The translations under genes and the position numbers were made by a program. The notes below the pieces were generated by a model. The model saw only the letters and a program-made list of their open reading frames with translations. It was not told where the DNA came from and made no database searches. From Deroplatys truncata (taxonomy: Eukaryota > Arthropoda > Insecta > Mantodea > Mantidae), in the NCBI GenBank assembly GCA_030765065.1, contig CM060989.1, positions 62,138,001-62,202,000 of the forward strand: 64,000 nucleotides of DNA, in the 5' to 3' direction. Positions within the stretch are counted from its first letter, which is position 1. Each line of letters opens with the position of its first letter. Shown piece by piece: positions 10,646-62,486 of the stretch.

Positions 10646-11519
10646 TGAGGCAGTATTTTTAACACTTAAATGATTTCAGTCTAATTGTATAATATATAAA
10701 TTCAATAACAGCCCGCCTTAAAGCAATATGTGTAGGTAACAATATATAAAAAATGTATATTATAATCATTGTATATGTTTATATTATTGTATCCATGTGT
10801 AATAATGTTATGTGAATATATTATGTAATTTAATAATGTAGGAGCTGTGAGAAATAGGTCAAAAGTTGCTAACAATGAGGTAACAATGAGGTAACCTTGA
10901 GGCAATAATGAGTTTGAGAGTTTAATAATGTTACTTGTGATTCTTGGAAGCAATAATGTAATTTTTTAAACAGTTTAAAAATAGCCAATCAACAACCAGA
11001 AAAAGCTTTAGTTAAATGAAGGTATTCTATTGGATTAGGAATAGCCAATCAGAGACTTGAAATACAGAAATTTACAAGTTTGGGCGGTTGAAATCAATTC
11101 AGTTGGTTGCAGACAGCGTTACTAACCAGATGCAAAAAGTGTCCTCAAGAAATTTAATATGTATTTGTGTGAGACGAAAATAGTTTTACGTGTTAAAAAG
11201 TGCAAGTAATTAATTAAAGAATCTCACAGCTCTCTATATCAGTGAAGTGTTATTTAAATCGTATCAAGCATTAATAAAAGGAGCGAAGTAAAATTATAAT
11301 CTGTGTAAGCCTACATTCTTAGTCGCACCACAACCCTGCCAAGACATCCATGTCTCTAACAATAATACTGAGTAGCCAAGGCAAATATAAATATATAATA
11401 TTTAAAGAAACAGTTAAATTACAAAGTTCATATTTTTTTAAACTTAGGGCGAAGGCTACCGGAAAGCGGGTATATTTTGAGCTTTTATCACATTTCATCT
11501 CTGTGAGCATCTTATTCTA
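10646..11519 (+). mobile_element. Solo LTR, family 2, copy 1
   Basis: It starts TGAGGCAGTATTTTTAACAC, shared by six copies in the window, and ends near TTATTCTA at 11519. The 4-bp AGTA flanks both sides (10642-10645 and 11520-11523), as for a Ty3/gypsy-type insertion. It has an AATAAA signal near 11271. Its 3' part holds a degenerate GGGCGAAGGCTACCGGAAAG unit (11447-11466), related to the PBS-like arrays of the longer copies. No internal retrotransposon sequence is present. Confidence 0.8.
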
Positions 11520-14032: not shown

Positions 14033-15009
14033 TGATGCAGTAATTTGTATCACAAATTACTTAAATGTAAATAATGATTGTAATATGAATATGCATTTTT
14101 ATGTGACATTGATTTGAGATGTTTGTTGAATGTAATTATTGTTGAGAAGTAAGTTTATACGACCTTACTGAAACTGTCAATAATAGCGCGCAATAATGCA
14201 GCGAGGGGGGGGGGAGCTGTTTATCATTATTGGAAACGAGGAAGTTGCGTAATGTTTGCGCGTTTTTCCATTTAGAACCTTCTGGAATATTTCCCTAGAG
14301 CATATGTATTCATAATTTTCATTGGATATTAAAATAGACGCTAATGTTGGCGCGTTTTATTAGCCAATAGTAACTCAGGTATAATCTTTAGGCATATCGG
14401 AGTGTATGGGTATAAAAGCAGTAGGTTGGAGGTAAAGTCAGTCTAGTTCATCAAAATTCTTTGTATACTACACGTCGCATTCCCGTCAGTTCGTCGAAAG
14501 TATTAGTACGGCATACATCGGATATAGATTCACAAGTTACGCGCAGCAGAATTATGAAAGATCTAAAGTATGGTAAAGTTAATTATACAAAAGATTGAAG
14601 TACGTGGATTAAAAGAATTATCAGTAAGAAGTTGTTATAACAGTTTCAGTTTGGCGAGTGTTAAGATCAATGTATAAATGTGATAGTTAACGTGTTCGAC
14701 AATAAAAGTATAAAACAAATTTCTTCATCAGTGTTCTTTTTGGATAAAAGATTCCTTTCCGTTTACACAACCCTGATCAAGAGATATGTTCGACCGAGAA
14801 ATAATAGCTAGCCGAGGACAGTAAACCAAAATTAATTAAGATAACAATATCGTTCTTTCAAACGAACACAAACACTGCTGCAAATTGCTAACACCAGATG
14901 GAGCTACAAACTGAACAAATGAATGACGTCACAAGATGGCTTCAACGCGTGAAGTAAACACACATACACAAACATCACAAGTAATAACATTATAAAAAGT
15001 ACCGTTACA
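14033..15009 (+). repeat. 5' LTR of family 1 element
   Basis: It starts TGATGCAGTAATTTGTATCA and ends CCGTTACA, immediately before the PBS. A TATA box (TATAAAAG, 14411-14418) precedes a probable initiator around TCAGTCTAG (14438), and AATAAA occurs at 14701-14706, giving a U3-R-U5 order. The 3' part holds two PBS-like fossils: AAATTGCTAACACCAGATGG starting at 14882 and GATGGCTTCAACGCGTGAAG at 14935. Confidence 0.93.
14411..14418 (+). promoter_or_regulatory. TATA box of 5' LTR
   Basis: TATAAAAG is preceded by GTATGGG and followed about 30 bp downstream by TCAGTCTAG, an arthropod-type initiator candidate. The same sequence recurs at 17551-17558 in the 3' LTR. Confidence 0.75.
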
Positions 15010-15012
15010 AAT

Positions 15013-15030
15013 TGGCGCCCAGCGTGGGGC
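15013..15030 (+). other. Primer-binding site (tRNA-Lys type)
   Basis: TGGCGCCCAGCGTGGGGC lies 3 nt after the 5' LTR. It is one base different from the PBS TGGCGCCCAACGTGGGGC, complementary to the 3' end of tRNA-Lys1,2, which primes minus-strand DNA synthesis in many retroelements. Confidence 0.9.
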
Positions 15031-15035
15031 AAAGT

Positions 15036-15106
15036 GACCAGGAAAGGGGCAAAGTAACCAGGAAAGTAGCAGAATTAACCAGGAAAGTAGCAGAATTAAC
15101 CAGGAT
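15036..15106 (+). repeat. 21-bp tandem repeats in the leader
   Basis: About three and a half units of roughly AAAGTAGCAGAATTAACCAGG follow the PBS; the first units have a GGGGCAAAGT variant that resembles the end of the PBS itself. They lie in the untranslated leader, where packaging signals usually reside. Function is not shown. Confidence 0.8.
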
Positions 15107-15129
15107 GTGGAATGAATGGAGCAGTGAAT

Positions 15130-15335
15130 TGATCTACAAGACGCAGATTCCAGAAACAACAAAAGGGACGACAGACTACGCGGATGATTGGACATCGTAA
15201 TTCCGAGATTACAAGGCAACAGGGGAATTCAACTACAAAAACATCGAGAAGACGCAGATTCCAGAAACAACTATAGGAACGACAGACTACGCGGATGAGT
15301 GGACACAAAAACATCGAGACAACGCAGATTCATCA
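15130..15335 (+). repeat. Direct repeats (about 60 bp) in the leader
   Basis: The block around GACGCAGATTCCAGAAACAA to GACTACGCGGATGA occurs at 15139-15187 and again at 15250-15298, and a third partial unit (AACGCAGATTC) is at 15320. These two or three diverged units sit between the PBS and the gag ORF and contain no long ORF. Confidence 0.75.
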
Positions 15336-15472
15336 TAATACAACGCAGAAGCAACATATAACCTAGGAGAGAGGGGCAGAAGCTGGACATCAAAGCAACA
15401 TCAGCAGATACCATCAGAAAGGTTAGAAACGTGTGATTTTTATTCTAAAAAAAAAAAGTGTAAAACTTTTAA

Positions 15473-16423
15473 ATGTACCTTAGGAGCGGTAGGATAAAGA
15501 AAACAATGGCTACTAATAATATTGAAGAAACAATGATGGAGGGGGATAGTGTAACAGTTAGCTGTAATTCAATACAGGTTATAGAAAATAGCTCAAACAA
15601 TGTAGAATTTGAGGGAGAAAATGTTAGTGCAGAAAGTAAGAATAGAATAGCAGGAAATATTAATTTTGATGCTAGTATGATGATGGAAATGCTGAGAAAT
15701 TTTAGAGATCAATTAAGGGAAGATATGCAAAAGAATTTTGAGAGATTAGAAAAGAAATTAGATCAAATGAGTGAAGATATTGGTAGGAGTAATGAGATAT
15801 TAGAGCAAAAAGTAGATCAAAGCAGGGAAGAAATTGAAAAGAAAGTTACGAAGCTGGATAGTAGTATGCCAAAAATGAGTGATGAAAAGGAAATAATAGC
15901 AAGTGAGATAGGAGAAGTTTCAAAGAAAATGTCAGATATGAGCAGGGAAATAGGTAACAAAGAAAGTGAGGTTAATACTAAAAATGAACATGTTGATGTA
16001 GAATGTACAGAGTCAGGTAGTAGAATGAGTAACATTTCAAATGAGATAAGAGAAATGAAAGAGGTTATGAATGTAGATGTGAATCAGGCGCAAGTTAATT
16101 TCAGAGGGGAGATATCAGAAATACAGAAGGAGTCAGTAATGCAAAGAAATAAATTGTACCAAGATGTTCAAAATGAAAACTCCAATCCAGTACAGTTTAT
16201 TACAGATTTGTCAGAGTACTTTCAAATTAAAGAGATAGCAGAAGAATTGAGAATAACAGTTGTTAAAAGATGTGTAATTCAGGAAACTTTAGATTGTTTT
16301 CAAATGTTATCATGGGACGAAATTTCATATGAATACAAGAGGCGATTCATGAACAAAATTTTGAAGGTTAGGAAATGGCTACGAGTAATGTTTAGCCACA
16401 CACAATTTGATCCAGGAGGGTAA
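15473..16423 (+). CDS. Gag-like structural protein of LTR element
   Basis: A 316-codon intact ORF starts MYLRSGRIKK, a basic start seen in arthropod gypsy-type Gag. Residues about 70-220 are a long heptad-rich coiled coil with many E/K/M/S. Residues about 238-300 (PVQFITDLSEYFQI, then ITVVKRCVIQETLDCFQML) resemble the Gag capsid region of Ty3/gypsy elements. No CCHC zinc knuckle is visible, and the ORF ends soon after the capsid-like part, so Gag looks C-terminally truncated. It has no pol partner downstream. Function would be packaging of element RNA. The stop at 16421-16423 is followed by AT-rich non-coding DNA. Confidence 0.75.
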   Translation: MYLRSGRIKKTMATNNIEETMMEGDSVTVSCNSIQVIENSSNNVEFEGENVSAESKNRIAGNINFDASMMMEMLRNFRDQLREDMQKNFERLEKKLDQMSEDIGRSNEILEQKVDQSREEIEKKVTKLDSSMPKMSDEKEIIASEIGEVSKKMSDMSREIGNKESEVNTKNEHVDVECTESGSRMSNISNEIREMKEVMNVDVNQAQVNFRGEISEIQKESVMQRNKLYQDVQNENSNPVQFITDLSEYFQIKEIAEELRITVVKRCVIQETLDCFQMLSWDEISYEYKRRFMNKILKVRKWLRVMFSHTQFDPGG

Positions 16424-17173
16424 ATAGCAATGAGATGTGAAGTAAATGCTGGATAGTTAAAGATGACTTGCAGAGAAATGTATTGGAACGTAAGAGGGTT
16501 AATTATTTATATGTCATTTGAAAAGAGAAATAAATTATAAAAAAAAAAAGAGAAATGTTTATTTAAAAAAAAAAAATTAAATTTTTAGTAACTATAACAG
16601 TATTTGAGATTAAGAACGTAAAGATTGAAACTTAATATGATATTAAAGTAAAAGTACGTAAATACAATTCCAAGAGTATTGTTAAAATAAAGTACAAAAT
16701 AACAAAAATGGGTAAAAATAATAATAAATAAAAAAAAAACAAATATTTATGTAGCAAACAGAAAATGTGAAACAGTGTCCAGATTTTAGAGATGTAAATA
16801 TATTTGTGTAAAGGGTGAATATTTTTGGTAAATATGTTTAATAATTACACAAAATTCTTGAATTGATAAATTTTTGTTAACAATATAAGAAAGTAAACCA
16901 TTTTTTGTAACAGTAATTAAATAATTCAGGGTACAGTATTTGCTATAAAAAAAAAATTGTAATGTCAGATTAAAGTCTAAACACATTAAACCAGAGCCAG
17001 TAAGTAGTGGCGAGATAAAAAAAAAAAAAAAAACATATGTCGTGTGTTAAATGCGTGTGATGTGTTAAGTGAAAGTGATAGCGTGTGTTCCAAGATTTAG
17101 GAGACTAAAAACCCAATTATAAAATTTCCAAACAAGTTGTAAATATTTATAATTATGTTTCTAGTGGGGCATA
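16424..17173 (+). other. AT-rich non-coding tail of the LTR element
   Basis: About 750 bp, very AT-rich, with several poly-A runs and no ORF on either strand that looks real. This is where pol would be in a full-length element. A short G-rich stretch, AGTGGGGC (17163-17170), just before the 3' LTR could serve as the polypurine tract. Confidence 0.7.
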
Positions 17174-18149
17174 TGATGCAGTAATTTGTATCACAAATTA
17201 CTTAAATGTAAATAATGATTGTAATATGAATATGCATTTTTATGTGACATTGATTTGAGATGTTTGTTGAATGTAATTATTGTTGAGAAGTAAGTTTATA
17301 CGACCTTACTGAAACTGTCAATAATAGCGCGCAATAATGCAGCGAGGGGGGGTGAGCTGCTTATCATTATTGGAAATGAGGAAGTTGCGTAATGTTGGCG
17401 CGTTTTTCCGTTTAGAACCTTCTGGAATATTTCCCTAGAGCATATGTATTCATAATTTTCATTGGATATTAAAATAGACGCTAATGTTGGCGCGTTTTAT
17501 TAGCCAATAGTAACTCAGGTATAATCTTTAGGCATATCGGAGTGTATGGGTATAAAAGCAGTTGGTTGGAGGTAAAGTCAGTCTAGTTCATCAAAATTCT
17601 TTGTATACTACACGTCGCATTCCCGTCAGTTCGTCGAAAGTATTAGTACGGCATACATCGGATATAGATTCACAAGTTACGCGCAGCAGAATTATGAAAG
17701 ATCTAAAGTATGGTAAAGTTAATTATACAAAAGATTGAAGTACGTGGATTAAAAGAATTATCAGTAAGAAGTTGTTATAACAGTTTCAGTTTGGCGAGTG
17801 TTAAGATCAATGTATAAATGTGATAGTTAACGTGTTCGACAATAAAAGTATAAAACAAATTTCTTCATCAGTGTTCTTTTTGGATAAAAGATTCCTTTCC
17901 GTTTACACAACCCTGATCAAGAGATATGTTCGACCGAGAAATAATAGCTAGCCGAGGACAGTAAACCAAAATTAATTAAGATAACAATATCGTTCTTTCA
18001 AACGAACACAAACACTGCTGCAAATTGCTAACACCAGATGGAGCTACAAACTGAACAAATGAATGACGTCACAAGATGGCTTCAACGCGTGAAGTAAACA
18101 CACATACACAAACATCACAAGTAATAACATTATAAAAAGTACCGTTACA
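17174..18149 (+). repeat. 3' LTR of family 1 element
   Basis: Nearly identical to 14033-15009. Visible differences include the G-run length near 17345, GAAATGAGG for GAAACGAGG, and AGCAGTTGG for AGCAGTAGG. TATAAAAG is at 17551 and AATAAA at 17841. It ends CCGTTACA and is followed by the ACAA flank. Confidence 0.93.
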
Positions 18150-21846: not shown

Positions 21847-22745
21847 TGAGACAGTATTTTTAACACTTCAATGATTTCAGCCTAATTATATAATATAAAA
21901 TATAATAACAGCCTGCCTTAAAGCAATATGTGTATAATATAATATATAAAATGTATGTAACAGTCATTGTATTATGTTTATATATTGTGTACATGTATAA
22001 TAATGTTATGTGAATGTATTACGTAATTTAATAATGTAGGAGCTGTGAGAATAGAAGCTGAAAGTTGCTAACAATGAGGTAACCTTGAGACAACAATAAA
22101 TTAGAAAGTTTAATAATGCTACTAGTAATTCTTGGAACAATAATGTAATATTTAAAACAGTTTATAAATAGCCAATCAAAAACTAGAAAAAGCTTAAGCT
22201 AAATAAAAGTTTTCTATTGGAGTAAAATTAGCCAATAGATGAAATTTGCAAATTCAGGCGGTAGAAGGCAGTCGCTAGAAGATAGTGTACCCAACTGGAT
22301 GCTAGAAGGCAACATTCCTGAGCAGTTCACTCGGTATGTATTCAGTGTGAGACATATAAAATTCATTATGGCGAGAATATTATAAAGTTTATGTGTTAAA
22401 AAGTGCAAGTAATTAATAAATAATCTCACGGGTCTCTATATAAGTGAAGTGTTATTTAATCGTGTGAAGGATTAATAAAAGGAGTGAAGTAAAAGTTATG
22501 ATTTGTGTAAGCCTACATTCTTTAGCCGCATCACCCCCTGATAAGTGATACATGTTTCTGCAAATTAATACTGATGCAGCCGAGGCAAACATACATATAT
22601 ATAATATTTAAAGAAATATTAAAATACAAAGTTGATTTTTTTAAAACGTGGGGGCAAAGGCCACCGGAAAGTAAACTTGAGGTGAAGGCCACCGGAAACT
22701 TTGTACCAAATGTGGGGCAAATAATGTAAAAATACAACTACTTCA
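21847..22745 (+). mobile_element. Solo LTR, family 2, copy 2
   Basis: It starts TGAGACAGTATTTTTAACAC and ends CTACTTCA. TTGT flanks it on both sides (21843-21846, 22746-22749). The 3' third has two GGGGCAAAGGCCACCGGAAA-type units (22671-22700) and a further ATGTGGGGCAAATAATG unit (22709-22726), both PBS-like in part. Its right flank is the tail of a PLE, so it inserted beside or into that element. Confidence 0.85.
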
Positions 22746-28061: not shown

Positions 28062-28986
28062 ATGTTTCGGGAAACGGTTGTTCCCATCCTCAGAAGGTTA
28101 ATAGAAGACCTCATACAACTTACCAATTTATGCATTGCACAAAATTGTTTTAGTTTCAATAAGAAGTTCTATCAACAACCAACTGGTCTAACCATGGGCA
28201 ATCCACTTTCACCCTTCTTGGCAGATTTATTTATGAGCTACTTAGAAACACACATAACAACTTCCTTTCCATACATGTTTAAAGTTTGGCACAGATATGT
28301 TGACGACATCTTCGCTGTTGTCCCTAATAGGTTCATACAAGACTCCTTAGCCTTACTAAACCTACAGAACCAATCAATAAAATTCACCATAGAAATAGAA
28401 AAAGAAGGCATGCTACCATTTTTAGACCTAAAAATCATCAGAGAACAAAAGAACCTAACCTTTGGCATATACAGGAAGCCAACACACTCTACTAATTACA
28501 TAAAAAATAAAGAGTTTCAATCCAACCACACACAAACATGCAGTACTAAACAGCCTAACACATAGACTGGTATATACCCCCTTAAATAAAAAAGAATACC
28601 AGTTAGAATACCAGCATATAGTAGACACAGCAATACATAATGGGTACAACAAAGCAACTATTGACAAAAAAATTGCAAAATTCAAACGACAGATGCACAT
28701 CAGAAACACAACAAATCTCAGCCAGCAAGATAAAGAGCTAAAGTTCAAGAAATTCACATACCACCCAGGAACATTTCACAAATTTAAGAAGATTTTCATG
28801 AAACATAACATCAGCCTAGCTCCACAGAACAAATTTAACATAGAGAAATTACTTTGTAACAAGTTAAAAGACCCCATTCCACAAGACAAAAAAGCTGGAA
28901 TCTATAAAATCAATTGTTCAGATTGCAATAAAGTAAACATAGGTAAGACAAAAAGAAACCTAGAAACTAGGCTAAAGGAGCACATG
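28062..28986 (+). pseudogene. PLE reverse transcriptase and linker (5'-truncated, frameshifted)
   Basis: The readable part starts inside RT, in the region after the missing N-terminal motifs. FYQQPTGLTMGNPLSPFLAD is the PLE substrate-binding block, HRYVDDIFAVV holds the YVDD active site, and PFLDLKIIREQ follows. The frame is broken near 28550. In the next frame, KKIAKFKRQMHIRNTTNLSQ leads to the GIY-YIG start (AGIYKINCSDCNKVNIGKTK). The YIG motif reads NIG here, so a key tyrosine is replaced. The segment ends at LKEHM where the LTR begins. Confidence 0.85.
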
Positions 28987-29964
28987 TATGATACGGTAAT
29001 TTGTATCACAAATTACTCAAATGTAAATAATTATTTTAATATGAATATGTATTTTTATATAACATTGACTTCAGAGGTTTAATAATTGTAATTATTATTG
29101 GTAAATAATAATATATGGCTTTACTGAAACTGTTAACAATAACGCAGGAATGCAGCGGTGGAGTGAGTTGTTTATCGTTACCGGGAACCAGGAAGTTACG
29201 TAATGTTTCGCGCCTTTTCGGTAAAAAAAGCTTCCAGAATGTTCTCTAAAAGAAATATGTATTAGTGGTTTTCATTGGGTATTAAAATAGACGCTAATGT
29301 TGGCGCGTTTTATTAGCCAATAGTAATTCATTTATAATCCTTAGGCGTATCTTGAGGTAAGCGCATAAATAGCCAGGCTCGAAGTCGGTCGCCCCGCAGT
29401 TCAACAAGATTCTCAGTACACTACACGTCGACCCCCAGTTCAACAGAATTCTCAGTACTATACACGTCGTCTCTCAATTCATTCATTTCGTCAAGTTACG
29501 CGCAGCAGAATTACGAGAGTAATTATAAAGTATCATACAGTTAAATACACAAAGTTGAAGTATGCGAGTTAAAAGTGATAAGCAGTTATTACAAACAGTT
29601 TCAGTATGGCGATTATCTAATAAATCTGTGAAAGTGTTCGTGAACGTGTTCTGCAATAAAGATTATAAAACCAATTTCTTCGTCAATATCATTTCTAGAC
29701 AAAAGATTCCTTTCCGATTCACACCCTGCAAGAGAAACATATTCGACCACAAACAGCTAGCCGGTGGACATTTAAAACTGATACAAATTGCTACGCCAGA
29801 GGGAGCTACAAACAGAACAAATGACCCAACCAACGTATGACGTCACAAGAATGGCTTCCACAAACACTGAGGTAAACAAACATGGTAACTAATACCGTCG
29901 CAAATTGGCTCCACAACGTGGAACTAAAATTAATGTTAAACAAATACAACATTAATACCGTCGC
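28987..29964 (+). mobile_element. Family 1 LTR inserted in the PLE, with captured PBS
   Basis: It begins TATGATACGGTAATTTGTAT and aligns with the 14-kb LTR throughout (TTGGCGCGTTTTATTAGCCA near 29298, AATAAA at 29657). An LTR-type end ACCGTCGCA occurs at 29893-29901, directly followed by a PBS-like TTGGCTCCACAACGTGG. A second ACCGTCGCA then closes the insert at 29957-29965. So the LTR is extended by about 65 bp containing a PBS. No internal genes are present. Confidence 0.85.
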
Positions 29965-30433
29965 ACATAACATCAGCCTAGCTCCACAGAACAAATTTAA
30001 CATAGAGAAATTACTTTGTAACAAGTTAAAAGACCCCATTCCACAAGACAAAAAAGCTGGAATCTATAAAATCAATTGTTCAGATTGCAATAAAGTAAAC
30101 ATAGGTAAGACAAAAAGAAACCTAGAAACTAGGCTAAAGGAGCACATGAGATGTATCAAATACAAACAAATGGACAAATCTGCAGTTTCACACCATTTTT
30201 GGATCACTAATCACAACATCAAACCCAATATTACATTAGTCAAACCAGCCAAATTTGCAGCTGAATTAGATGCATGGGAGAAGATCACCATTCTAAAACA
30301 CAACACAAATCTAATGAATTTTGATTTGCCGCCACCAAATCCTCTCTGGAAGTACATTTCTCCACCACAAGATGCCACCACAGGATCCAGTCCAAAAAAC
30401 GGAAACACCAACAACACGGGCCAGTCGAATTAA
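29965..30433 (+). pseudogene. PLE GIY-YIG endonuclease and C-terminus
   Basis: Open from 29882 (joined by chance to LTR sequence) to the stop at 30431-30433. The PLE part starts HNISLAPQNKFNIEKLLCNK. GIY-YIG motif residues are AGIYKINC, NIGKT (Tyr to Asn) and the conserved Arg in ETRLKEH. Then follow SAVSHHFWITNHNI and a Pro-rich end (NFDLPPPNPLWKYISPPQD). The first 184 bp duplicate 28803-28986 exactly. Confidence 0.85.
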
Positions 30434-34026: not shown

Positions 34027-34518
34027 AACAATTTGATGTGTTACATTCATATGATTTTCTCTACCCTCTATTGCTTATTAGTGACTATACAAATTATTCT
34101 TATGATAGTTTATTTTTCTATCTACTTCATTGGAATTGAGATAAACCTTCACAGAAATAGCTACATTACACATTTTGTTAGGATACAAAGAGAACAATAG
34201 TCAAATATTTAAGAACTGGGTGCTATATGCTGGCCCTAAAATTCCATACTGTTTACATGCTATCATGAGAAACAACTGAAAAGTGACAGGACTTAAAGGA
34301 ATGACAAATATTGAAAAAAAATCGAACCATTAATAATGGTTATCTCAGAAATGGCAAAAAAAGGTATTTGAAATAAATTGTGTGTTTTAAAGAGATGCCC
34401 ATTTTTGGTGTAGTAACTTTTCGTCTATCACTTAATGTTTACTAGTGCAAGATTCTGCAATATTCCTTCCAAAAGAAAAGGACTTGACAGACTATTGCCA
34501 GAAAATTCAAGATATACA
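34027..34518 (-). repeat. Old repeat A, first part, ending at an LTR insertion
   Basis: This diverged minus-orientation copy starts TTTGATGTGTTACATTCATA and runs to CAAGATATACATT. The last ~290 bp (34228-34518) are duplicated after the LTR fragment at 35291-35583. Confidence 0.8.
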
Positions 34519-35290
34519 TTTGATGCAGTAATTTGTATCATAAATTATTTAAATGTAAAGAGTGATTATAGTATGAATATGCATTTTTGTGTAACATTGA
34601 TTTGAGATGTTTGTTGATTGTAATTATTGTTGGGAAGTAAGTTTATACTGCCTTACTGAAACTGACAATAATAGCGTGCAATAATGCAGCAAGGGGGTGA
34701 GCTGTTTATCATTATTGGAGACGAGGAAGTTACGTAATGTTGGCGCGTTTTATTAGCCAATCGCAGCTCAGTTATAATCTTTAGGCGTATCGGTGTGTAG
34801 TAGTATAAATAGAGGCTAGGTTAGAGGTAAAGTCCTTCGGTCCGTCAGTTCATCAAAAATCTTTGTACACTACACGTCGTATTCAGCCCGTCAGTTCATC
34901 GAAAATATTTGTAAAGTACACGTCGCCTTCAGTCAGTCAGTTCGTCGAAAGTATTTGTACGGCACACATCGGATATCAATTTGCAGGTTACGCGTAACAG
35001 AGTTATAAAAAAATCTCAAGTATTATAAAGTTAATTATACAAAAAGTTGAAGTACGCGAATTAAGATTGATCAGTAATGAAGTTATTATAACAGTTTCAG
35101 TTTGGCGAGTGTCAAGATCAATGTGTAAATGTGAGTAAATGTGTTCGACAATAAAAGTGTAAAACAAATTCTTTCATCAGTGTTATTTTTGGATAAGAGA
35201 CTCCCTTCCGTTTACACAACCTGTATAAAGAGAAGTGCTTGACCAAAAGATCATAGCTAGCCGGAGGACAGTGAACAAAAATTAAATAAA
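34519..35290 (+). mobile_element. Family 1 LTR, 3'-truncated
   Basis: It starts TGATGCAGTAATTTGTATCA and aligns with the 14-kb LTR to GAGGACAGTGAACAAAAATT, stopping about 170 bp short of the LTR end. Internal parts of the LTR are tandemly varied: the CATCAAAA/TTTGTACACTACACGTCG block is present as three diverged units (34850-34970), against two in the 14-kb copy. It is bounded by a long direct duplication of the host repeat rather than a 4-bp TSD. Confidence 0.85.
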
Positions 35291-35870
35291 ATGCTGGCCC
35301 TAAAATTCCATACTGTTTACATGCTATCATGAGAAACAACTGAAAAGTGACAGGACGTAAAGGAATGACAAATATTGAAAAAAAATCGAACCATTAATAA
35401 TGGTTATCTCAGAAATGGCAAAAAAAAGTATTTGAAATAAATTGTGTGTTTTAAAGAGATGCCCATTTTTGGTGTAGTAACTTTTAATCTATCACTTAAT
35501 GTTTACCAGTGCAAGATTCTGCAATATTCCTTCCAAAAGAAAAGGACTTAACAGACTATTGCCAGAAAATTCAAGATATACATTTTATCTGTCTGTAAAT
35601 ATCTTTAATAGGTGGTATTTTAATCAAAATCATTAAGAGCCATTTTTAGACAATCAAAAGCTTTGAAAAATGTTCCAAGTAAAGGGCAGTTTGGGATCTT
35701 CTTGAAAACCTTTGTGTCACGTTTTTGGAAGATATTGAACTTATTTACCAAGTTTGGTATTTATTTGACATTTAATTTTTTGAGTTACGCTGTTCACAGA
35801 CAAATACATGGAACCTTTTTCTAAATTTTTTTTTTATGGAATGCAATGTTACAGAAAAAAAAACAAAAAG
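35291..35870 (-). repeat. Old repeat A, second part, beginning with the duplicated segment
   Basis: It starts ATGCTGGCCCTAAAATTCCA as at 34228, repeats about 290 bp with a few substitutions (for example ACGTAAAGG for ACTTAAAGG), then continues into the rest of repeat A (CATTTTATCTGTCTGTAAAT). A low-complexity A/CA run ends it near 35895. Confidence 0.8.
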
Positions 35871-45694: not shown

Positions 45695-47551
45695 TGAGGC
45701 AATATTTTAATACCTGAATAATTTCAATTGTATTTTATAATAAGTAAATTCAATAACAGCCCGCCTTGAAACAATATGTATGTAATAATTATTTAAATTG
45801 TATGTAACAGTCATTGCAAATGCTTATTACTTTCTCTACTACGTATAGTAAGTAGGGGAAGTATTGCATTCCACCCAAAAATTCGATACCGAGATTTCAC
45901 CGGAAATACATGTTTTGAAACATGTCCGTGTGTGTGTCTGTGTGTGCGTCTGTGAACAGCATAACTCAAAAACGAACAGTCGGATAAACACCAAACTTGG
46001 TATTTAGTTTCAGTATCTTCCAGAGATGCGACACAAAGGTTTTCAAGAAAATCCCCCCACCCCAGACTACCCTTTACATGGAACATTTTTCGAAAATTTT
46101 AATTTTCTCAAAAATGGCTCTAACGATTTTGATGAAAATATCATATGTTTAAGATAATGTAATGAGAAATGAAATGTATATCTCGAATTTTCTGGGAATG
46201 TCTCCAAAAGTATTCTTCATTGTGAACGACTTTTGCATAACTGGTAAACCATAAGAGATAGACAAAATTTCACTACACAAAAAATGTAGATCGCGTTAAA
46301 ATACACAACTTATGTCATATACATTTCTTTTGTTGAGTGAACCGTTTTCAAGATATTGCTTGTTATTTCCTTAAATTTTCCAATACTTATACTTTTTCTC
46401 AAATTCGTTATTCATTTTTTTATGTCCTGGACATGCAAAGAGAATGGAATGCGCCACATAGCAACCAGCGTTAAAATATTTGACTATCGCTTAAAAGCTA
46501 CCATATTCCCCTTGCATCTACAAGAAAATTACCAATATGATTGACATCTCGATATCTCGATTAACATGAAGCATATGGAGAATAGGCATTTGTAAAAATA
46601 GATTGTACAAGAGTAGAGAAAGTCATGTGAGTGTAACACATCAGATTTTTTTTATTGTAAACATGTTTTAATAATTTTATGTAAATATATTACATACTCT
46701 AATAATGCAAGAGCTGTGAGAATAATAAGTTTTAAGTTGCTAACAATGAGGTAATAATGAGGTAACCTTGTAGCAATAATGAGTTTGAGAGTTTGAATGT
46801 TACTAGTCATGATTACAGCAACGATAATGTAAATTCAGTAACAGTTTAAAATTAGCCAATCAATAGCAAAGAAAAGCTTTAAGTAAAATGCAGATATTCT
46901 ATTGGACTAGAATTAGCTAATCAGAGACTTGAAATACCGAAGCTTACGGGTTTAATGGTTGAGATAATGTTCAGTTGCTGGCAAACCTTGGTAGTGACCA
47001 GATGGAAGATGTGTTCTCTACAGAAATATTACTTGTGAATCATACAATATGTATACGCGCTAAGTGAAAGTATTAAAGAATCTCACAGCTCTTAAAAGTG
47101 TAGTGCTATATTTAAAATGTGCAAAGGATAAAATAAAAGAAGTGATTTTTAAAAACTTAAAATTATGTGTATGTCCACAATTATTGTCGTACCGCACCTT
47201 GCCTTAGAGATACATGACTCTACAAACATTACTGAAGCAGCCAAGGCAAATTCAAACATAAATAATATATAGAAGCAGTTTTAATAACAAAGTTAAATAT
47301 TATAGTATAAAATCAGCTTCTCATATGTAGCAGCATATTGCGTAACAACAGTAATTATTACGTAATCAACAACTTCAAACCGACGCCCAAAGCGTGTTGC
47401 ATACTTCTTAAGCAAAGTAACTCCAAGAACAAAACTAATTCAAATTGGCTTCCAATGCATGAAGCTTAATAAATTACATAAACAAACCACCTTCTCAAGT
47501 TGGCTCCCAAACGTGGGGCAGTTAAACCAAAGCAACTATTTATCTATCTCA
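45695..47551 (+). mobile_element. Solo LTR, family 2, copy 3, with nested repeat A and PBS-like array
   Basis: GTTG flanks both sides (45691-45694 and 47552-47555). It starts TGAGGCAATATTTTAATACC and ends TATCTATCTCA. A repeat A copy (45829-46652) interrupts it. The 3' part holds three PBS-like units: CGACGCCCAAAGCGTGTTGC (47381-47400), TGGCTTCCAATGCATGAAGC (47446-47465) and TGGCTCCCAAACGTGGGGC (47501-47519), the last being closest to a real PBS. Confidence 0.85.
45829..46652 (+). repeat. Repeat A nested in a solo LTR
   Basis: Complete ends are present, with only a short GT block (45925-45955). The uninterrupted LTR copy at 56870-56900 gives the empty site (GCTTATATTATTGTAAAC), showing insertion into a TA/TT-rich target. 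Confidence 0.88.
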
Positions 47552-48545: not shown

Positions 48546-49560
48546 TGAGGCAGTATTTTTAACACTTAAATAATTTCAGTCTAATTATATAATATATAAA
48601 CTCAATAACAGCCCGCCTTAAAGCAATATGTGTTTGTAACAATATATAAGGAGTGTATATTACAGTCATTGTATATGTATATATTATTGTATCCATGTGT
48701 AATAATGTTATGTGAATGTATTACGTAATTTAATAATGTAGGAGCTGTGAGAATAATAGGTTAAACCTTGTTAACCATGAGGTAACCTTGAGGCAATAAT
48801 GAGTTTAAGAGTTTAATAATGTTACTTGTGATTCTTGGAAGCAATAATGTAATTTTAGTGACAGTTTATAAAATAGCCAATCAACAACCAAAAAAAGCTT
48901 TAGTTAAATGAAGGTATTCTATTGGACTAGGATTAGCCAATCAGAGACTTGAAATACAGAACTCTACAAAATTAAGGCGGTGGAAAACAGTTCAGTTGCC
49001 TGCAGACAGTAATTGTAACCGGATGCATGATGCATCCTCGAGAGATTTTATACGTATTTTGAGTGAGACAAAAATAGTTTACGTGTTAAAAGTGCAAGTA
49101 TTTAATAAAAACATCTCACAGCTCTCTCTTTATATCAGTGAAGTGTTATTTAAATCGTGTCATGCATTAAAAAAAGGAGTGAAGTCAAATTATAATCTGT
49201 ATAAGCCTACATTCTTAGTCGTACCAAAACCCTGCCAAGAGAAACGTGTCTCTAACAAATACTGACGCAGCCGAGGCAAACATAAATATATAATATTTAA
49301 AGAAACAGTAATTTTATTTTTTAAACTTGGGGCAAAAGCCACCTGAAAATACATTTGGGGCGAAGTCTACCAGAAACTGTTTACCATATGTGCCATTACA
49401 ACTAATGCAAGTTCAGCTCCCTAACAGTTGAAATATAATACGACTCCTTCAATACAAACTACTTCAAATTGACGCTCAAAGCGTGTTGCTAACAACGTAA
49501 AAGAAAACAACTTCTTCAAATTGGCTTTCCATACGTGGAGCTAAATAAATATCTTCTTCA
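48546..49560 (+). mobile_element. Solo LTR, family 2, copy 4, abutting a THOC1 splice donor
   Basis: It starts TGAGGCAGTATTTTTAACAC and ends AATATCTTCTTCA. GTTA follows (49561-49564) and GTTA plus three T precedes (48539-48545), so the 4-bp TSD is inexact on the left. PBS-like units are TGACGCTCAAAGCGTGTTGC (49470-49489) and TGGCTTTCCATACGTGGAGC (49522-49541). Its 3' end is only 33 bp from the GTAGGT donor of THOC1 exon 3. Confidence 0.82.
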
Positions 49561-56745: not shown

Positions 56746-57851
56746 TCAGACAGTATTTTTAACACTTAAATGACTTCAGTCTAATTATATAATATGTAAA
56801 TTCAGTAACAGTCCGCCTTGAAGCAATATGTAGGTATGTAATAATTTGTAAAATGTATGTAACAGTCATTGAATATGCTTATATTATTGTAAACATGTTC
56901 AATTATGTTATGTGAATGCATTACGTAATTTAATAATGTAGGAGCTGTGAGAATAATAAGTTAAACGTTGCTAACAATGAGGTAACATTGAGGTAACCTT
57001 GAGGCAATAATGAGTTTGAGAGTTTAAATGCTACTAGTCATTATTAGAGCAGCAATAATGTAAATTTTGAGACAGTTTAAAAATAGCCAATCAACAGCCA
57101 GAAAAGGCTTTAGTTAAATGCAGGTGTTCTATTGGAGTAGGATTAGCCAATCAGAGACTTGAAATACAGAGATTTACAGGTTTAGACGGTTGAAATCTAT
57201 TCAGTTGCCTGCAGACAGTGATAGTAACCGGATGCAAATGCGTCATCTAGAGAAATATAATACGTATTCGTGTGAGACGAAAAATAATTATACGTGTTAA
57301 AAAGAGCAAGTAATAAATAAAAGAATCTAACAGCTCTCTATATCAGTGAAGTGCTATTTAATTTGTGTCAAGGATTAATAAAAAGGAGTGAATTAAAACT
57401 TAAAAGCTGCTAAGCCTACATTCTTGTCGCATCACGCCCTGCCAAGATATTCATGTCTCTAAAATAATACTAACGCAGCCGAGGCAAACATAAATATTAA
57501 ATATTTAAAGAAACAGTTTAATTACAAAGTTAATATCTTTTTTTAAAACTTGGGGCAAAGGCCATCTAAAAATACATTTGGGGCAAAGGTCACCTGAAAG
57601 TACATTTGGGGCGAAGGCTACCGGAAACTACTATAAGTGCGGTTGCAACTACTACAAGTTCGAATCCCCAACAGTTGAAATATAATACATCATCTTCAAA
57701 CTGACTTTCCATACGTAGCAGCAACAAACATTTTCTCAGATTGACGCCCAAAGCATGGTGCAAATAACGTAAAGAAAAAATAACCTTCTTCAAATTGGCT
57801 TCCATACGTGGAGCTAAATAAATAAACAACTCCAACAAAACTTTTTCCTCA
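56746..57851 (+). mobile_element. Solo LTR, family 2, copy 5, with PBS-like array
   Basis: CATT flanks both sides (56742-56745 and 57852-57855). It starts TCAGACAGTATTTTTAACAC and ends TTTTTCCTCA. The 3' part contains three GGGGC(A/G)AAGG units (57552-57622) and PBS-like TGACTTTCCATACGTAGCAGC (57702-57722), TGACGCCCAAAGCATGGTGC (57742-57761) and TGGCTTCCATACGTGGAGC (57796-57814). Confidence 0.87.
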
Positions 57852-60880: not shown

Positions 60881-61941
60881 GAACCTCTGTTCGCGCGCCG
60901 GCCGCCTCGCTCCTTCTACAGCGATAGAGGTATATCCCTCCAACCGCTTCATGTTCTCAGGCAGTATTTTTAACACTTAAGTAAATAATTTCAGTCTAAT
61001 TATATAATACATAAATTCATAACAGGCCGCCTTAAAGCAATATGTGTATGTAACAATATATAAGGAGTGTATATTACAGTCATTGTATATATTTATATTA
61101 TTGTATCCACGTGTAATAATGTTATGTGAACGTATTACGTAATTTAATAATGTAGTAACTGTGAGAATAATAAATTAAACGTTGCTAACAATGAGGTAAC
61201 AATGAGGTAACCTTGAGGCAATAATGAGTGAGGGTTTAATAATGTTACTTGTGATTATTGGAGCAACAATAATGTAATTTTAGTGACAATTTATAAAATA
61301 GCCAATCAACAACCAGAAAAAGCTTTAGTTAAATGAAGGTATTCTATTGGACTAGGATTAACCAATCAGAAAAAAAATGGAGCGAAATTTACAAATTCAG
61401 AAGTCAGTTGCTTGTAGACAGTGTTCCTAACCGGACGCGAGAACCCGTCCTCGAGAATTTAATACGTATTCAGTGTGAGACAAAAAATAGCTTGTGTTAA
61501 AAAAGTGCAAGTAATTCATAAAAGAATCTCACAGCCCTCTATCACTGAAGTGTTATTTAAATCGTGTCAAGCATTAATAAAAGGAGTGAAGTAAAATTAT
61601 AATCTGTGTAAGCATACATTCTTAGTGCACCACAACCCTGCCAAGACATCCATGTCTAAAATAAATACTGGCGCAGCCGAGGCAAACATAAATATTAAAT
61701 ATTTAAAGAAACAGTCAAATTACAAAGTTAATACTTTTAAATTTTTTTGACGAAGGCTACCGGGTACCATACGTGCGGTTGCAACTACTTCAAGTTCGGC
61801 TCCCCAACAGTTGAAATATAATACAACTCCTTCAATACAATCTACTTCAAATTGATGCCCAAAGCCTGGTGCAAATAACGTAAAGATACTATCTACATCA
61901 AATTGCTTCCATACGTGGCGCAAATAACAATACAACAAAAC

Positions 61942-62326
61942 ATTCATTCATTCATTCATTATCTGTTTACCCTCCTCTTATGTAGGACTTACACCCCCCA
62001 GGACTTACAGGCGGGTGCCTGGGGTCAGAGGCCCGTTGAGGAGCAGACACTCATGGATCAGATAGAACATCCAGGATGGGTGATCAGCCCGATGCCTGGT
62101 ATGGGATGGAGGAAGTAGATGAATCGAAATGTTGGTGAAATGAATGAAAGGAAAGGTGATGATGGAGCAGTTGGTGGAATGAATGGCGGGGGAAACCGGA
62201 GAACCCGGAGAAAACCCGCCCAGACGCCGCTTCGTCCACCACAAATCCCACATGCAGGTCCCTGGTATTGAACCCAGGCCGCCTCGGTGGGAGGCGAGCG
62301 GTCTAACCACTCGGCCGCGGCGCCGC
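61942..62326 (-). repeat. tRNA-type SINE, full length
   Basis: A 14-bp TSD, CAATACAACAAAAC, flanks it (61928-61941 and 62327-62340). On the minus strand the 5' end is strongly tRNA-like: GCGGCCGAGTGGTTAGACCG (A box) and CTGGGTTCAATACCAGGGAC (B box), with a Ser/Leu-like A-box sequence. The tail is (ATTC/GAAT)n at 61942-61960. It is the intact counterpart of the fragment at 1-209. Confidence 0.92.
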
Positions 62327-62353
62327 CAATACAACAAAACAACTTCTTCAAAT

Positions 62354-62464
62354 TGGCGCCCAAAACGTGGGGCTAATAAAAATACTTCTTCAAATTGGCG
62401 CCCAACGTGGGGCAAATAACAATACAACAAAACAGCTTCTTCAAATTGGCGCCCAACGTGGGGC
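62354..62464 (+). repeat. Tandem PBS array inside an LTR
   Basis: Three units: TGGCGCCCAAAACGTGGGGC (62354-62373), TGGCGCCCAACGTGGGGC (62396-62413) and the same 18-mer again (62447-62464). Each is preceded by CTTCTTCAAAT and followed by (A/T)AATAA. The spacing is 42 and 51 bp. They precede the LTR's 3' terminal CA, so they lie inside the LTR and not after it. Confidence 0.92.
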
Positions 62465-62486
62465 TAATAAATATCTCCTTCAGTTC

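Follow-up and report, generated by a model that had tools for sequence, protein, structure and literature searches.

The ends of long terminal repeats (LTRs) are treated as fixed landmarks in finding, dating, and classifying LTR elements. According to Voronin and Pathak, reverse transcription reportedly can start from either copy in retroviral vectors that carry two primer-binding sites (PBSs). Such vectors are artificial and hold two copies, whereas the PBS arrays described here are natural, with up to 8 copies in full-length elements and 31 in a solo LTR. The non-autonomous TRIM and LARD elements resemble one of the elements treated below in its shortness and its single larger open reading frame (ORF); to our knowledge, PBS arrays at the border between U5 and leader are not part of their definitions. 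A published insect LTR likewise possesses tandem units, which, to judge from the title, are repeats of R rather than of an LTR terminus with a PBS. A literature search based on titles and abstract openings, with thin coverage of subscription papers, returned no description of PBS arrays across an LTR border. In HIV and SIV, proviruses inherit the PBS either from the tRNA or from the RNA, in a 50:50 ratio (PMC4549124). The likeness to the present case lies in this double source of the progeny PBS; in the cited portion of that source, one PBS and no moving LTR end are described, whereas arrays of PBSs are found here.

The window analysed here, that is, the whole stretch of 64,000 nucleotides (34% GC, A+T-rich), carries a solo LTR of a family designated family 2, the 3′ part of which contains a series of PBS-like units. 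The features of this LTR and its array are as follows.

60957..62482, forward strand: family-2 solo LTR carrying the PBS array, split by a SINE (placed by homology to other window copies and by the target site duplication (TSD) GTTC)
60953..60956, no strand: TSD GTTC, 5′ copy
62483..62486, no strand: TSD GTTC, 3′ copy
61785..61813, forward strand: innermost PBS-like unit, type Z, core TTCGGCTCCCCAACAG, weak (10 edits from the module)
61842..61872, forward strand: unit A, PBS-like TGATGCCCAAAGCCTGGTGC (7 edits; type A is present at other loci too)
61893..61921, forward strand: unit B, PBS-like TGCTTCCATACGTGGCGC (7 edits; type B is present at other loci too)
61943..62327, reverse strand: antisense tRNA-like SINE within the array (TSD AATACAACAAAACA at 61929-61942 and 62328-62341)
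62343..62373, forward strand: unit with PBS TGGCGCCCAAAACGTGGGGC, the PBS at 62354 (2 edits)
62385..62413, forward strand: unit with exact PBS TGGCGCCCAACGTGGGGC, the PBS at 62396 (0 edits)
62436..62464, forward strand: unit with exact PBS TGGCGCCCAACGTGGGGC, the PBS at 62447, last before the LTR end (0 edits)

The first-pass annotation had set the LTR end at 62482 by the TSD GTTC and had noticed three PBS motifs (62354, 62396, and 62447) in front of that end; both observations were confirmed, with the LTR start at 60957. The exact PBS TGGCGCCCAACGTGGGGC is taken by us to be the complement of tRNA-Lys(CTT). This 18-mer, with at most 3 mismatches allowed, occurs at 3 places in the window (62396, 62447, and 15013), whereas 100 shuffles gave 0.00 on average; the copy at 62354 falls outside these matches owing to a 2-base insertion. 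The 6 units of the array follow one order, namely LTR terminus, AAT (AG in the innermost), PBS or PBS-like sequence, and short spacer, and the earlier statement that each unit is preceded by the LTR's own terminus holds for most of them. A scan with a 29-base module of terminus, AAT, and PBS at a loose cut-off of 11 edits detected the 6 units in the LTR tail and none in the LTR body (60957-61699). Since shuffled tails reach up to 4 matches at this cut-off (mean 0.98), the innermost unit at 61785 is weak when taken alone. Of the diverged inner versions reported earlier, those in the units at 61842 and 61893 stand and the innermost is weak; the SINE had been overlooked. This SINE sits in the middle of the array with a 14-bp TSD, and the gap between the inner and outer units is therefore explained by a later insertion. 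A genome search with the SINE gave 7,819 first-look candidates, 40 of which were scored, and most of the matches listed cover 61943-62327. One further locus (L002/L010, C15:63473278-63473819) holds a copy of the window SINE together with the adjoining array, LTR end, and flank at 98% identity, followed by a piece of another SINE head, and looks like a SINE transduction of the 60957-62482 locus.

The type Z unit is also listed in loci L014, L018, L020, L025, L027, L029, L030, and L034. Duplication of A or B was considered as the origin of the outer units (62343-62464) and rejected, since the outer units lack differences that A and B have in common with other copies. The LTR at 60957-62482 differs by 30 private substitutions (7%) across 430 comparable sites, and, among 40 scored of 5,859 candidates, the match closest to its first 344 bases, itself aside, reaches 93% identity. 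The divergence of the LTR bodies indicates that the family-2 copies are old. Five related copies in the window have the LTR start in common; the end is present in four of them, with an exact 4-bp TSD in three of the four, and the copy at 10646 is truncated on the 3′ side. The four copies with both ends are as follows.

21847..22745, forward strand: family-2 solo LTR, TSD TTGT, with at most one degenerate PBS-like unit (11 edits)
45695..47551, forward strand: family-2 solo LTR, TSD GTTG, with an insertion at 45827-46650 and three units (9, 9, and 4 edits)
48546..49560, forward strand: family-2 LTR with two units and no exact 4-bp TSD; GTTAT is present close to either end, with an offset of 2 bases at the 5′ end
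56746..57851, forward strand: family-2 solo LTR, TSD CATT, with three units (10, 8, and 4 edits)

The array was also used as a query against the genome (4.29 Gb, 818 contigs), which yielded 1,751 first-look candidates; 40 of them were scored, and 30 loci were extracted. The related LTR copies sampled in this way contain 2 to 31 units each. In 22 scored loci, the TSD beyond the array is exact in 15 (including L009, which is the LTR at 60957-62482), has one mismatch in 4, and has two or three in 3; this scoring left out L026, the start of which was misplaced, and 7 of the 30 loci that lack an LTR start. These exact TSDs support the earlier placement of the array inside the LTR. Two of the 15 exact-TSD loci end in TTTA or TTCG and not in TTCA, the family-2 LTR having TG..CA ends. 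The largest array, with 31 units of a 49-bp period, lies inside an LTR with the TSD TTGT (L038). PBS units in front of the LTR end are thus a feature that recurs genome-wide. No full-length family-2 element with an internal region was recognised among the 30 loci obtained with the array, and none was seen among the 40 scored of 5,859 candidates, the latter judged from the match list. None of the loci L009-L038 was taken as the 5′ LTR of such an element, because no sequence starting at the LTR end is common to their downstream flanks, short spacers of the array and the pair L009/L010 (a locus with its retroposed duplicate) excepted; ORFs of at least 90 aa are present in these flanks. In the collection viral_contigs, 0 matches to exact and gapped PBS patterns were obtained. 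At about 420-760 of L012, a family-1-like LTR tail with four PBS-like units is apparently nested in a family-2 LTR bearing an array of its own.

Full-length elements are available in a second family, family 1, which is also represented in the window by the following features.

14033..15009, forward strand: 5′ LTR of the full-length family-1 element (99.28% identity between its two LTRs)
15013..15030, forward strand: PBS TGGCGCCCAGCGTGGGGC adjoining the 5′ LTR, one base off the exact complement, with CA, AAT, and TGGCGCCCAGCGTGGGGC together at 15008-15030
17174..18149, forward strand: 3′ LTR of the family-1 element, 99.28% identical to the 5′ LTR and ending before the PBS position
28990..29965, forward strand: family-1 solo LTR running beyond the homologous PBS position, with a PBS-like unit at 29906-29924 and a second terminus copy TAATACCGTCGCA; a 184-bp flanking repeat, in place of a short TSD, defines its ends

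The element at 14033-18149 is 4.1 kb long with TG..CA ends, contains one ORF of at least 150 aa between its LTRs, and is flanked by ACTA and ACAA, with one mismatch; for family 1, the TSD was scored at this window element alone. The ORF, of 316 aa, matched no Pfam family above its cut-off and is labelled a putative gag by its position. The LTR bodies of families 1 and 2 have no meaningful similarity, and the unit plan is common to both. A PBS-like stretch inside the family-1 LTRs of the window (14937 in the 5′ LTR) was rejected as a unit and left uncounted, its 7 edits also being reached at other places as background. Copies of a sequence of about 21 bases (GGGGCAAAGTRACCAGGAAA, with variants) are repeated in tandem at 15026-15105 in the leader of the element, starting within the 3′ end of the PBS. 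Two family-1-like LTRs of the window, at 28803-30148 and 34227-35588, have long flanking direct repeats (184 bp, 100%, and 298 bp, 97.7%) compared to the usual 4-6 bp; the second LTR looks truncated on the 3′ side.

A genome search with the 316-aa ORF gave 26,199 first-look candidates, 126 of which were scored, and 30 loci; within 5 edits, the 5′ regions of these loci show between 1 and 8 PBS-like units, apart from L057, which has none. The elements first compared were 34 in number (26 loci with 3′ LTR ends, 7 further elements with both ends, and the window element). An LTR pair of at least 95% identity was found in 28 of these, L040, L044, L046, L053, L056, and L061 lacking one, and the border between LTR and leader could be placed in 25 of the 28. 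The border was not readable in L043 (tandem) or in L068 and L097 (longer 3′ LTR), and L041 was kept despite its longer 3′ LTR. With L113, added from four later elements, the sample comprises 26 of 38 elements; the later elements L109/L110 were left out, as were L111/L112 and L115/L116, for which the border is unreadable in the 5′ pieces, and L047, L057, and L066 are unpaired.

In each of the 26 elements, the shared LTR sequence ends in front of a PBS unit, the unit in question differing among elements. The distance from the LTR stop to the PBS unit is 0-4 bases in 19 of 25 elements and 8-21 bases in the other 6, in which the last LTR bases differ. Across the 26 elements, 0-3 units lie inside the LTR and 0-6 are left in the leader beyond the border unit. 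The border is located before unit 2 of 8 in L054, unit 2 of 5 in L051, unit 4 of 5 in L063, and unit 3 of 5 in L065. Among the 81 units of these elements, CA is found five bases before the PBS in 71 and AAT just before the PBS in 74. The first-pass annotation had asked whether full-length elements carry the array in both LTRs and a further PBS immediately after the 5′ LTR. In family 1, this arrangement is present in L045, L049, L055, L058, L063, L064, L067, L101, and L113 among others, which have 1 to 3 units in both LTRs, and is absent in L059, L060, L099, L103, L105, and the window element, in which no counted unit lies inside the LTR. In three elements (L041, L068, and L097), the 3′ LTR exceeds the 5′ LTR by one or two units. 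Furthermore, the last 6-8 LTR bases before AAT and PBS are highly variable among the units of L039-L068, at times even between the two LTRs of one element.

Among border units, 10 of 26 carry the exact complement TGGCGCCCAACGTGGGGC; the corresponding counts are 0 of 27 for units within LTRs and 2 of 28 for leader units. The difference between the border and elsewhere (10/26 vs 2/55) corresponds to a Fisher p of 1.2e-4 and a within-element permutation p of 2.7e-4, values that overstate independence because units in an element and elements in a family are kin. Two PBS-like matches, in L052 and L099, were judged to be chance and removed by hand from the unit counts. In all 12 elements that possess an exact or one-mismatch copy, the border lies at the first of these. 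The border unit is neither exact nor one-mismatch in the other 14 of 26, being of GA, TA, TCa, TCt, or other types, most with 1-2 extra bases. When the last unit before the leader is the border unit (12 elements), it is exact in 5, one-mismatch in 1, and GA-type in 6; when it is not, it is exact in 1 and GA-like in 12 of 13 elements, or 13 of 14 with L113. This comparison of exact copies in last units alone is not significant (Fisher p 0.073). The exact PBS at the border precedes several kinds of spacer (S1, S2, S3, S4, and other), which off the border mostly carry other PBS types; exact PBSs in leaders are confined to one S2 unit and one S3 unit. Taken together, many elements have units to either side of the border, the border is variable in position, and the exact complement is enriched at it.

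We consider it likely that the PBS copy primed by the tRNA sets the end of U5 and that this copy is overwritten with tRNA sequence, LTRs thereby growing or shrinking by whole units. The array would then be a run of alternative PBSs, which can span the border between U5 and leader, with a typical unit consisting of the LTR terminus (..CA), AAT, the PBS, and a leader portion of some 10 to 130 bases. Every cycle of reverse transcription would start with the tRNA priming at one unit, where U5 would end; units upstream of the primed one would pass into both LTRs, and those downstream would stay in the leader. As the plus strand copies the tRNA, the used PBS would be rewritten to the exact complement in about half of the descendants, and bypassed units would retain old or mutated versions. 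Because the primed unit would set the end of U5, the 3′ end of the LTR could move outward or inward by whole units: the border would shift outward when a good PBS is lost and be drawn back by a good one upstream. Any unit could serve for integration, since the units carry their own LTR terminus. Exact PBSs within an LTR (those at 62396 and 62447, for instance) would be the primer sites of earlier cycles. The probable sources of new units are tandem duplication and a template switch out of the leader back onto the LTR end, and units may be shuffled among copies. The extra units in the 3′ LTRs of L041, L068, and L097 are not given by this simple model; a misaligned second strand transfer, at times pairing the wrong PBS copies, would produce such a longer 3′ LTR. 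The order of events, rewriting as the cause of the exact copies, the origin of units, and the movement of the border between copies are what we infer from comparisons of sequences. For family 2, including 60957-62482, which is known from solo LTRs alone, the same mechanism would apply by analogy to the full-length elements of family 1. The first-pass annotation had suggested priming from a downstream PBS copy, and this remains the best account of the place of the array in the LTR.

The exact complement at a moving border could also result from selection for efficient priming or from recombination between units, instead of rewriting, which we regard as rather unlikely. Selection would yield an identical enrichment, and variants with inserted bases may prime poorly. 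However, the exact PBS stands before several spacer kinds, and point mutation would need several changes each time. As for recombination, a 187-base stretch is present twice in L054 with 186 identical bases, one copy following the exact border PBS and the other a leader PBS of the TA type. Because the alignment of the pair begins only within the PBS and the parts upstream differ, the two PBS types could be explained by a recombination breakpoint, and rewriting fits as well.

Rewriting at the primed unit is also to be compared with stepwise outward absorption, in which each event adds the current PBS and some leader to the LTR end, resulting in an age gradient along the array, as proposed in the first-pass annotation. 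From the inside to the outside, the PBS edits in the LTR at 60957-62482 are 8, 6, 5, 2, 0, and 0, and those in L011 are 4, 3, and 0, in agreement with such a gradient. In 28 copies, drawn with the 60957-62482 array as query and hence not a neutral sample (L010 and L038 left out), the mean within-copy correlation between position and PBS edits is −0.32 with type Z (permutation p 0.0035) and −0.19 without it (permutation p 0.051). The outermost unit is the joint best PBS match in 12 of the 28 copies when type Z is omitted, and exact units occur in mid-array in L032 (6, 0, 3, 3) and L036 (2, 0, 4). The age gradient is a weak tendency and no rule; the claim of oldest units inside and newest outside is valid for the copy in which it was made, but not in general. 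Moreover, spare PBS units are already present in the leaders of many full-length elements, the border lies before different units, and the arrays look internally expanded or shuffled, which together make a steady outward absorption improbable.

Internal change of the arrays is suggested in family 2, in which unit types recur among copies in differing orders, A, B, and a third unit being a frequent one. The runs comprise the 31 similar 49-bp units of L038, four B-like units in L018, four similar units in L029, and an alternating run in L028, and these four arrays look expanded or shuffled internally. Such runs would be expected from ordinary tandem-repeat expansion of U5 by slippage or unequal exchange, with the PBS as a mere passenger. 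As the whole explanation, this is very doubtful, since it does not account for a border in front of a PBS unit, for units on either side of it, or for the position of the exact complement there; as an additional process it is probable. An unremoved primer copy, by which 18 tRNA-derived bases stay at the LTR end, would place PBS-like sequence there, as at retroviral circle junctions, but is hardly credible because the units also hold leader sequence and a fresh LTR terminus.

If the choice of primer site sets the LTR end, LTR length would differ by whole units within a family, annotated PBS positions could mislead, and arrays may reveal the primer sites of past cycles from sequence alone. How an element alters its U5 while keeping the integrase end would become testable, because the units bring their own copy of that end. 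A bolder proposal, to which we would give just under an even chance, is that such an LTR has no fixed 3′ end, the end being picked in each cycle by which of the tandem PBS units the tRNA primes. Use would overwrite the unit with tRNA sequence, the array would become a partial written record of past priming, and redundant units may be kept as insurance against the loss or silencing of any one PBS.

Family-1 sequences appear in addition to be arranged in series at two places in the genome (L043 and L047). The family-1 ORF is listed seven times at a spacing of about 3,076 bp on C11 (C11:72738216-72757388) and twice on C14 (C14:71527311-71531464). These runs are probably tandem chains of alternating LTR and internal region.
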